Of a DNA stretch of 64,000 nt, positions 121 through 46,096 are shown one piece after another. This DNA comes from Enterobacter vonholyi (GTDB taxonomy: Bacteria > Pseudomonadota > Gammaproteobacteria > Enterobacterales > Enterobacteriaceae): NCBI RefSeq assembly GCF_008364555.1, contig NZ_VTUC01000008.1:64001-128000 (forward strand), read 5' to 3'. Both the position numbers and the translations under genes were made by a program. The stretch's first letter is position 1, and the number at the start of each line of letters is the position of its first letter. The notes beneath the pieces were generated by a model. It did not search any database and had not been told where the DNA came from. It was given only the letters and a program-made list of their open reading frames with translations.

Positions 121-215
121 GCGTTCAGGAAGACCGCTACGGGAACCTGAAAGCACGACATTGCTCACATTGCTTCCAGTATTACTTTAGCCAGCTTTTA
201 GCTGGCTTTTTTTTT
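121..215 (+). ncRNA. ryhB: RyhB iron-sparing small RNA
   Basis: The transcript region matches E. coli RyhB through its conserved core (CCTGAAAGCACGACATTGCT at 147-166, followed by TCACATTGCTTCC). It ends in a terminator stem AGCCAGC/GCTGGCT with a T run (189-215). RyhB is an Hfq-dependent RNA made under iron limitation that base-pairs with mRNAs of iron-using proteins and lowers their translation. Its position directly upstream of and codirectional with yhhX is the same as in E. coli. The 5' stem differs from E. coli at several bases, but the pairing core is intact. The start is set by homology. Confidence 0.93.
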
Positions 216-30324: not shown

Positions 30325-30470
30325 AAGAACTAAAGCGCCACATAAGGGCGCTTTAGTTTTTCCCGGTCTTTGTCTTTCACTCTATCCCGCTGGTTCACGG
30401 GAGGGTTTCCCCCGACGTCAGCACCCCTCAGTGTCGAGCTGGTTGGGGAGGTTCCGGATTGTGCTGACAC
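30325..30470 (-). ncRNA. sraL: Probable SraL (RyjA) small RNA
   Basis: The soxR-GST gap contains no ORF but has a GC-rich block ending, on the minus strand, in a strong terminator. In E. coli and Salmonella this is the place and strand of SraL, about 140 nt, whose terminator faces soxR. A CATAGAAT element (minus strand, about 30483-30476) can serve as a -10. The transcript would run from about 30470 to 30325. Bounds are inferred; I matched position, strand, length and terminator rather than the full sequence. Confidence 0.6.
30329..30361. terminator. Shared soxR / SraL terminator
   Basis: ACTAAAGCGCC (30329-30339) / GGCGCTTTAGT (30347-30357) is followed by TTTTTCCC on the plus strand. On the minus strand the tail after the stem is TCTTTATG, weaker but usable. 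Confidence 0.85.
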
Positions 30471-43353: not shown

Positions 43354-43447
43354 GGATTCTTATCATCTGGGTACACGCCGCGCAGTATAATCGCGGGCGC
43401 AAAAGAAAAAAACGGGTGCATTAAAACCTCAGCATCCTACAAGCCGG

Positions 43448-43465
43448 GCGGAACCGTTGTTCCGC
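43448..43465 (-). other. Hairpin 3' of the hok-like gene
   Basis: GCGGAAC / GTTCCGC with a CGTT loop, ten bases after the toxin stop. Hok mRNAs carry 3' structures that pair back to the leader; this may be part of one or a simple mRNA end. Confidence 0.45.
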
Positions 43466-43474
43466 ACGTAGAGA

Positions 43475-43627
43475 TTAGCCTGCGTTGCAGGCTAATTTTG
43501 CCGCCACCTCCTGATGCTTACTCTTTATTGAGAACTCGCAGAGCTTACCGCGAGTAATAAAGGTAAAAATCACTATCGTCAGGCAAACAATAAAGACGAT
43601 GCCTAACGCAGTTTTTAATGGCGTCAT
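43475..43627 (-). CDS. hok: Hok/Gef-family type I toxin (small membrane protein)
   Basis: A 50-codon ORF encoding one N-terminal membrane helix (VFIVCLTIVIFTFITR) followed by KLCEFSIKSKHQEVAAKLAC. This is the Hok/Gef pattern: IVCLT in the helix, then TR-x2-LCE and EVAA as in plasmid R1 Hok. Hok proteins depolarise the inner membrane when translated, and translation is blocked by an antisense RNA. AAGGAG lies eight bases before ATG 43627, a strong site. It ends ACNAG rather than the usual AYES. The antisense region and leader upstream match known hok/sok loci. Confidence 0.82.
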   Translation of the reverse strand: MTPLKTALGIVFIVCLTIVIFTFITRGKLCEFSIKSKHQEVAAKLACNAG

Positions 43628-43632
43628 GCCTT

Positions 43633-43782
43633 TTACTCCTTGTCAAAAAAAGAATAAGAGGCTACTCTCAACCTGTTGGTTGTTGAGGGGTAGCCTCGGG
43701 TGAATGAAAATTTCCCGGGGCTTTCCACTTTCTGTCCCTCAACAATGCTCAAGACAGAAAGTCTTAAGCATCCGCCGAACAT
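43633..43782 (-). CDS. Mok-like leader ORF upstream of hok
   Basis: A 49-codon ORF starting MFGGCLRLSVL after GGGGATAAG. Its TAA overlaps the toxin ribosome site (AAGGAG-TAA), leaving five bases to the hok ATG. In plasmid R1, translation of the overlapping mok frame is needed for hok translation. This ORF could play that part by terminative coupling, although it is longer and placed further upstream than known mok frames. No product similarity was recognised, so it may only be a spacer. Confidence 0.45.
   Translation of the reverse strand: MFGGCLRLSVLSIVEGQKVESPGKFSFTRGYPSTTNRLRVASYSFFDKE
43660..43696. other. Long hairpin in the hok leader
   Basis: GGCTAC-T-CTCAAC (43660-43672) pairs with GTTGAG-GG-GTAGCC (43682-43695). 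In the toxin mRNA it would stand just upstream of the hok ribosome site. It may hold the site closed or act as the antisense recognition structure. Confidence 0.5.
43674..43730 (+). ncRNA. sok: Sok-like antisense RNA
   Basis: The plus strand opposite the hok leader reads GCCTCGGGTGAATG...CCCGGGGCTTTCC, then an ACTTTCTGTC...GACAGAAAGT stem and AAGCATCCGCCG. This is the same order of elements as E. coli sokC (GCCTCGGGTTGATG...CTCGGGGCTTT...AAGCACCCGCCG). CCTCGGG/CCCGGGG followed by CTTTCC can end the RNA. TTGTCA (43640) and TACTCT (43663), 17 apart, are a possible promoter. It should block leader translation and so toxin synthesis. The ends are estimates. Confidence 0.55.
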
Positions 43783-43892
43783 CTTATCCCCCTGAATTAA
43801 AATGCAAAGATGTAATTCTATTCTGCGTAAATTACATTATTTCTGCGAGCCGCTTTCCAGAATAATAATTTATATTTCTTATGAATTAATCG

Positions 43893-43948: not shown

Positions 43949-46096
43949 TCAACCCATTGCGCTTTCGCGCAGTCGGGCTTTCAGCTTGTTATATTCATCG
44001 ATCACGTACTGTTCCGCCGCGTGCTGATCCGCAATCGGCTCAACGTTAACGGCGCAGTATTTATACTCCGGCGTTTTGGTTATCGGGCTTAAGTTCTCTG
44101 TTACCAGCTCGTTGCAGGCACCAATCCACCACTGGTAGGTCATATAGACCGCCCCTTTGTTTGGACGATCGCTGACCTGCGCACGGGTGATGATCCGCCC
44201 TTTGCGCGAGTTCACCCACACCAGCGCTTCATCCTCAATACCGAGCCGTTCCGCATCGGCGGTGTTGATCTGCGCGTAGCCCGGTTCATCCGCCAGCGCC
44301 GCCAGCGCGGCGCAGTTTCCGGTCATCGAGCGGCAGGAGTAGTGGCCCACTTCACGTACGGTGGAGAGCACCATCGGATACTCGTCGGTGAGTTTATCGA
44401 TCGGCGCGACCCAGTCGCAGGTGAAGAACTGCGCCAGCCCGTTCGGGGTGTCGAATTTCTCCTTAAAGAGATAGGACGTGCCTTGATCGGCCTCTGACTC
44501 ATCCCTGCACGGCCACTGGATGTACCCCAGCTCACCCATTTTTTCATAGGTGGCGCCGTAGAAGTCCGGACACAGGCTGCGCAACTCGTCCCAGATCTCC
44601 TGGGTGTTGTTGTAGTGCATCGGGTAGCCCATGCGGGTGGCGATTTCGCTGATGATCTGCCAGTCCGTTTTCAGATCCCACTTCGGCTCGACCGCCTTAA
44701 AGAAGCGCTGGAAGCCGCGGTCCGCCGCCGTATAGACGCCTTCATGCTCGCCCCAGGAGGTCGACGGTAAAATCACATCCGCCGCCGCCGCGGTTTTGGT
44801 CATGAAGATATCCTGGACAATCACCAGCTCCAGATCCTCAAACCCTTTACGCACTGCAGAAAGCTCGGCGTCGGTCTGAAGCGGATCTTCACCCATGATG
44901 TAGGCCGCACGCACTTCGCCATGCGCCGCGCGGTGCGGCAGCTCGCTGATGCGATACCCGGTGTGTTCCGGCAGGCTTTCCACGCCCCAGGCCTTTGCGA
45001 ACTTGGCGCGGTTTTCCGGGAACTTCACGTACTGGTAGCCCGGATAAGTATCCGGCAGCGCGCCCATATCGCAGGCGCCCTGCACGTTATTCTGACCGCG
45101 CACCGGGTTCACGCCAACGTGGGCTTTACCCAGATTACCGGTCAGCATCGCGAGGCTGGTGAGCGAGCGCACGGTTTCCACGCCCTGGTAGAACTGGGTT
45201 ACGCCCATACCCCAGAGAATGGCGGCGGTTTTTGCCCCGGCATACATTCTGGCCGCCTGACGAATCTCCTGCGCGCTGACGCCGGTTATCGCTTCGACGG
45301 ATTCAGGCGTATAGCCCTCGACTATTTTCTTATACTCTTCAAAGCCTTCTGTACGGGTCGCGACAAACGCCTGGTCGTACAGGTTCTCCTCAATAATGAC
45401 GTGCCCCATTGCGTTCAACAGCGCGATGTTTGAGCCGTTTTTCAATGCAATGTGCATATCCGCAATGCGCGCGGTTTCAATTTTGCGCGGATCGCAGACG
45501 ATGATTTTCGCCCCATTCTGTTTAGCGCGAATAACGTGGTTCGCGACGATAGGGTGAGAATCCGCCGGGTTATAACCAAAGATGAAGACGAGATCGGTAT
45601 TATCTATCTCGTTGATGGCATTACTCATTGCGCCGTTACCGACCGACTGGTGCAGACCTGCAACCGATGGGCCGTGTCAGACGCGAGCGCAGCAGTCGAC
45701 GTTATTAGTACCAATAACGGCGCGCGCGAATTTTTGCATCACATAGTTGGTTTCATTTCCCGTCCCGCGGGAAGAGCCGGTAGTCTGGATGGCATCCGGG
45801 CCATACTTGGCCTTGATGGCGCTCAGGCGCGTGGCGACGTAATCCAGCGCCTCGTTCCAGGAGACGGCTTCCAGCTTGCCGCCGCGCTCGCGGCGGATCA
45901 TAGGGGTTTTCAGGCGCGGGGTGAGGATTTGGGTATCGTTAATAAAATCCCAGCCGTAGTAACCTTTCAGGCACAGCGTGCCCTGGTTGGTTTTCCCCTG
46001 TGCGGCCTCCGCCCGGACGATTTTGCCGTTATCGACCACCAGGTGGATCTTGCAACCTGAGGCACAATAAGGGCAAACCGTGACGACTTTTTTCAT
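43949..46096 (-). CDS. fdhF: Formate dehydrogenase H, selenoprotein FdhF
   Basis: A 715-residue molybdopterin enzyme of the formate hydrogenlyase complex that oxidises formate to CO2. The N-terminus has the [4Fe-4S] cysteines CPYCASGC...C. Selenocysteine 140 is encoded by an in-frame TGA (45679-45677) in NVDCCARV-U-HGPSV, so the gene looks split in simple ORF calls. With read-through the length equals E. coli exactly. ATG 46096 gives MKKVVTV. The gene has a sigma-54 promoter and should respond to FhlA and formate. Confidence 0.97.
45640..45679 (-). other. SECIS element of fdhF
   Basis: The 40 bases starting at the TGA fold into the hairpin that recruits SelB; the apical GGTTGCAGGTCTGCACC is unchanged from E. 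coli fdhF. It directs selenocysteine insertion instead of termination. Confidence 0.9.

Follow-up and report, generated by a model that had tools for sequence, protein, structure and literature searches.

A minus-strand open reading frame of 50 codons, 43627–43475, lies between fdhF and yjcO in the window (the whole 64,000-nucleotide stretch of an Enterobacter vonholyi contig that was analysed). Member of the Hok family. The frame scores 44.5 bits against Pfam HOK_GEF (PF01848; cut-off 22) and is matched by NCBIfam Hok models with E values down to 5e-14, yet under their curated cut-offs. VCLT, TRGKLCE and EVAA motifs are present, as are Cys15, Cys30 and Cys47. The product, of 50 residues, is a predicted membrane toxin. 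A Shine-Dalgarno sequence, AAGGAG, stands at 43636–43641 (minus strand), 8 nt before the hok ATG. The Rfam sok model (RF01794) matches the leader at 43773–43625 with 93.9 bits (cut-off 59), on the strand of the hok mRNA. No other Hok was found in a search of the window's own genome. The locus is a real, conserved chromosomal hok/sok-type locus, and the first-pass annotation, which had read here a 50-codon Hok frame with a strong ribosome site and a Sok-like antisense region, is supported in these points. Its limits of 43445–43782 proved too narrow; the unit reaches down to 43414 with the fbi element and up to 43837 with a promoter and a palindrome.

The presumed full-length hok mRNA, with putative ends, spans 43406–43773 (minus strand). 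The predicted fold of 43773–43406 (z = −7.17) joins its 5′ and 3′ ends by pairing; with the last 40 nt removed, the 5′ end is predicted to fold on itself. Pairing was scored in an alignment of 56 of the 60 distinct orthologues; L049, L085, L089 and L153 were set aside because an element was missing or the start misplaced. The lock consists of a tac element as the 5′ half (43763–43773, minus strand) and, beyond the range reported earlier, an fbi element as the 3′ half (43414–43425, minus strand); their helix keeps 614 of 616 pair cells across the 56 orthologues, as expected of an R1-type tac/fbi pair, with no two-sided change. Behind tac follow a 5′ leader stem, ACUUUCUGUC/GACAGAAAGU (43727–43762, minus strand; 557/560 cells paired, with two-sided changes), a leader hairpin whose plus strand is the presumed Sok terminator (43692–43722; 96.7% of cells paired), the Sok target hairpin (43658–43697, minus strand) and a hairpin hiding the Shine-Dalgarno sequence (43628–43662, minus strand; 97.1% of cells paired in the 56 orthologues). 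The target hairpin is recognised by its outer stem (98.4% of cells paired) and by the Rfam sok match. It carries an inner CTCAAC/GTTGAG stem (84.7% of cells paired), and the start scan finds no start codon behind its GAGG.

The inactive structure keeps 98.4% of cells and the active structure 96.6%. Two-sided changes number 20 in the inactive structure (4.0 ± 1.6 when shuffled, at most 11 when slid) and 13 in the active one (3.2 ± 1.5 when shuffled, at most 6 when slid), counts that are inflated by the relatedness of the sequences; counted by the pairs that show such a change, the active structure does no better than its shuffles (325/500). Alignment column 200 has alternative pairings, with the 5′ arm of the target or with the end of the Shine-Dalgarno hairpin. 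It is C in five sequences, matching G on both alternative partners, possibly through one event.

The hok Shine-Dalgarno sequence is paired in every fold tried. Its unpaired fraction is 0.05 here (60 rows) against 0.53 in plasmid-type loci (17 rows, repeats included), so something must open the hok ribosome site. The site of hokC, a mok-bearing locus, is also hidden (0.10 unpaired). Stronger hiding can mean a tighter lock where the leader is absent, or the need for an opener of another kind. Release of the hok Shine-Dalgarno sequence by formation of the target hairpin was rejected as a switch: the competing folds differ little, with the target fold ahead in 29 of 56, and the sequence stays paired.

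The antisense RNA is predicted by position, the Rfam model reading the hok-mRNA strand. In K-12 that model likewise matches the strand of hokC and hokB, with sokC and sokB annotated on the opposite strand; the match therefore marks the hok leader and was rejected as proof of an antisense RNA. K-12 sokC is annotated 49–107 nt upstream of the hokC ATG, and the equivalent place in the window, 43676–43734 (plus strand), is the predicted Sok. A predicted Sok promoter, TTGTCA-17-TACTCT, lies at 43640–43668 (plus strand); the position of the Sok region and the promoter hexamers are kept in orthologues. The presumed hok promoter, TTTGCA-16-TAAGAT, lies at 43781–43808 (minus strand), with a mean column identity of 0.954 against 0.783 for the upstream spacer (18 sequences). 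A promoter consensus scan of the region scored neither one, so both predictions rest on conservation.

A palindrome, ATGTAATT-N12-AATTACAT, lies at 43810–43837 and ends just before the presumed hok −35. At least 6 of its 8 arm pairs are kept in 54 of 58 orthologues with tac (17 of 2900 mononucleotide shuffles); one of the misses, L119, has only 4 nt of upstream sequence. The spacer measures 12 nt in 44, 10 in 6, 11 in 2 and 13 in 2. The arms are 97–99% conserved, the spacer 64%. It is absent from 36 other hok rows (repeats included, 10 rows with no tac match excluded) and from the sequence before K-12 hokC, hokB and hokE. Single in the genome up to 1 mismatch. Membership of a regulon was rejected, as 3 mismatches yield 11 genome sites and a backward control yields 12. 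The palindrome is a possible operator, at which a dedicated regulator may act.

The start of mok is nearly always missing. The test looked for ATG, GTG or TTG 3–18 nt behind the 5′ arm of the target. Of 60 distinct orthologues, 59 have none, and the window is among these; all 14 distinct plasmid-type loci with a target have one (11 ATG, 3 TTG; L007, L014 and L015, which lack a Sok target, and the repeats L108 and L109 excluded), and in K-12 the mok ATG stands at −57 for hokC and −58 for hokB. The sole exception is L116 (G031), where an ATG at that place shares the hok frame and opens an 81-codon frame with hok inside it. A named protein of Lelliottia jeotgali, 81 aa long, has the same length as this frame. 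The earlier reading had implied a standard hok/mok/sok copy; with no mok start at the canonical place, the locus is filed as a hok/sok variant and not as R1-type hok/mok/sok. A 49-aa frame at 43782–43633 was considered as mok and rejected; its ATG shares bases with the presumed −10, upstream of where the RNA is presumed to begin. The test for a start behind the target arm likewise gives no leader into hok in 15 HokA-type loci (repeats L104, L105 and L106 excluded; a TTG in range in L020 opens a frame of 3 codons, not taken as such a leader), 8 MK[RS][RT]-type loci, 10 MKP-type loci or K-12 hokE, and the missing start is thus a wider trait of chromosomal loci in the sample examined. The exact mok-less target pattern occurs in 13 of 392 family genomes and 6 of 154 genera (control 0), a narrow pattern that undercounts: G025, G029, G039 and G048 carry the locus and do not match.

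As the mok start is nearly always missing, Sok likely silences hok in the absence of a canonical mok. Weak substitute leaders may stand in place of mok. A GTG frame of 31 codons (43728–43633, minus strand) stops 5 nt before hok and occurs in 19 of 60 orthologues, the window included; 18 of the copies have a ribosome-site-like sequence, which in the window is GAGGGA, 6 nt upstream. A frame of 12 codons starting at −44 (in the window TTG at 43671) occurs in 48 of 60. Both frames end at the same TAA, and a TAA at −8 is kept in 59 of 60. These frames, with the ATG of L116 (1/60), are among the evidence against a leader-free mode. On this alternative one of the two frames would be translated, hok would be reached by reinitiation, and Sok would act through the leader as in R1. 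We regard this as unlikely, though it is the strongest of the alternatives. Neither frame is universal, and hok stays intact where they are lacking; no row has a ribosome-site-like sequence before the −44 start; the spacing between target arm and hok is not tied to one frame (28, 16 and 15 loci by remainder).

The locus occupies a fixed chromosomal place in Enterobacter and near relatives. In K-12, 93 bases separate yjcO from fdhF. The window's 595-base intergenic stretch, searched by blastn, has no match in a collection of 5,426 E. coli genomes, in agreement with the earlier statement that no hok locus is known there in K-12. A genome scan gives 18 loci in records titled Enterobacter, Lelliottia, Huaxiibacter, Leclercia and Superficieibacter, 17 of them between fdhF and yjcO; the Superficieibacter locus has two tandem copies between fdhF and gltP and lacks yjcO. 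In a 61-genome genus set, which evidently includes genomes titled under other genera in that scan, intact hok, tac and fbi are at the place in 46, the window included. The other 15 lack an intact full unit: the hok stop is changed in one (G049); the frame is intact but an insertion element separates hok from tac in two (G021, G050); hok is broken in two (G011, G054); no hok is at the place in four (G001, G026, G033, G043); yjcO and fdhF are present with no hok in two (G006, G057); in G047 fdhF is present, and the fetched flank contains no yjcO and no gltP; no close fdhF is found in three (G032, G034, G036). The first-pass annotation held that length-filtered gene calls would miss the toxin; the relatives are not simply missed, since public databases already know several of their proteins by the name 'Hok/Gef family protein'.

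The locus is vertically inherited and under purifying selection, a chromosomal family and not the standard copy implied earlier. Distances between hok mRNAs follow those between the first 444 bases of yjcO (r = 0.904, 48 loci; 0 of 2000 permutations as high). The dN/dS of hok is 0.21 (1638 pairs). Mean column identity is 0.78 in the upstream spacer and 0.93–0.97 in the promoter, tac, leader hairpins and fbi (18 sequences, Superficieibacter rows excluded). MKP-type hoks adjoin gltP in other genera at 46–55% identity, with gltP in the fetched flank of 6 of 10 examined; together with the tandem copies, this suggests that the fdhF–yjcO/gltP place is old. A plasmid origin of the window copy was rejected: a blastn search with leader plus hok hits 2 of 72,556 plasmid records, covering 26%, and the 535 plasmid records that tblastn matches all lie below 60% identity. 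A phage origin was rejected as no phage record matched, and a prophage context as the flanks are fdhF, yjcO and gltP.

Tandem hok copies were seen at L048, L143 and L144 and at L154–L158, L160, L161 and L166; Superficieibacter and its set g57 have two here, other genera two or three, several of these beside gltP. Insertion elements with the ends of K-12 IS150 lie just upstream of the Sok target arm in L126 (G050) and L127 (G021), and likewise in six other Enterobacter hok loci (L005, L006, L012, L016, L020, L101); K-12 hokA (L054) also carries IS150. The positions point to the hairpin as a possible insertion hot spot. L042 and L049 hold similar inserts, each about 130 bases long (TACCCTAAATAATTCGA ... 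AAGTATGACGGGTA): the one in L042 lies downstream of hok, the one in L049 inside hok after codon 31, where it breaks hok. Other Rfam matches in the window are SECIS_2 at 45630–45684 (minus strand) in fdhF, which the ORF list splits near the selenocysteine codon, sraL at 30326–30468 (minus strand) and RyhB at 149–214 (plus strand).

A decaying relic, this strain having lost either the production or the toxicity of Hok, would fit the two broken and two split copies in the genus set and the insertion elements carried by K-12 hokA, hokC and hokE. It would also fit two private weakening changes in the window's own lock, an A-C mismatch and a G-U, both found in 0 of the other 55 sequences; the window's duplex is the weakest among loci with both elements (−19.2 kcal/mol; next L095, −22.0). 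The full unit intact in 46 of 61 genomes, the low dN/dS and the conservation of promoter, tac, target and fbi above that of the spacer make such decay improbable.

Least credible is a conventional mok with an unusual start codon behind the target arm, overlapping hok in an ordinary R1-type system: leader order and Rfam score resemble hokC and hokB and the relative L116 has such an ATG, but adding CTG, ATT, ATC and ATA leaves only 9 of 60 loci with any candidate start, and stop codons between target and hok close both off-hok frames in all 60 loci and the hok frame itself in 29.

Cys15, Cys30 and Cys47 occur together in 58 of 60 orthologues and correspond to Cys14, Cys29 and Cys46 of HokB. Position 29 of HokB is encoded as Tyr and is turned into Cys by TadA editing of the mRNA at UACG (PMC12214031); the window family encodes Cys30 outright in the DNA. 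In L095 (G048), codon 30 is TAC followed by G, the TadA motif UACG, in place of Cys. This locus also has a changed Shine-Dalgarno sequence and other private changes, so decay is as likely as editing.

The preferred reading is that of a chromosomal hok/sok-type locus with a predicted toxin, tac, fbi and a Sok target but with no canonical mok start, whose hok is probably silenced by Sok in a mok-free manner. On this proposal, tac–fbi pairing would lock the full-length hok mRNA. Trimming at the 3′ end would free the 5′ hairpin and the Sok target. Binding of the predicted Sok (43676–43734, plus strand) to the target would tag the mRNA for RNase III. With Sok exhausted, ribosomes would reach hok directly; they would probably wait on the target region and then melt the A/U-rich hairpin hiding the Shine-Dalgarno sequence, a standby mode proposed by analogy with tisB. 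The toxin would depolarise the inner membrane; its Cys30 and Cys47 would probably be linked, in line with the proposal for edited HokB. A bolder reading is plausible but tentative, and we hold it at somewhat below even: a chromosomal branch of hok/sok may have discarded Mok, with a target lacking a start, an inner second stem, direct silencing by Sok through an mRNA switch, a dedicated palindromic operator and a hard-wired disulfide that HokB makes only after editing.

For R1, a passage of one review calls the translation of mok an absolute requirement for hok (PMC4147584); a passage of another expects the same principles for chromosomal copies (PMC5668327). A conserved chromosomal family that keeps toxin, lock and target, nearly always with no mok start, opens that expected rule to a test by simple fusions. 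Presence of the full unit in 46 of 61 genomes bears on what chromosomal type I toxins are kept for. The literature searched holds no recognisable paper on a hok locus at yjcO–fdhF or on mok-less hok loci; an earlier description is possible.

Compared with hok/mok/sok of plasmid R1, as the reviews present it (PMC4147584, PMC5668327), the locus shares a Hok-family toxin, a long folded leader, a 5′/3′ lock, a Sok target and, by prediction, an upstream antisense region. Differs in that R1 needs translation of mok, whereas the window locus has no mok start there, is chromosomal and is vertically inherited. Resembles K-12 hokC/sokC and hokB/sokB in leader order and Rfam match, and sokC in the predicted antisense position; unlike the window locus, hokC and hokB have a mok ATG and occupy other chromosomal sites, and HokB has a Tyr29 that needs mRNA editing to become Cys (PMC12214031). 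Shares with K-12 hokE/sokE and with the HokA-type (15) and MK[RS][RT]-type (8) loci of the genus the lack of a mok start behind the target arm leading into hok; these belong to other protein groups at other sites and, in those examined, have no upstream palindrome. The locus may work like tisB/istR-1, described in a passage of one review as having an RNA antitoxin that acts far upstream of a hidden toxin ribosome site, a standby site and no leader peptide (PMC5668327), standby in the window locus being an analogy. Unlike the window locus, tisB/istR-1 has, in that same passage, another toxin, a divergent antitoxin gene and LexA control (PMC5668327).
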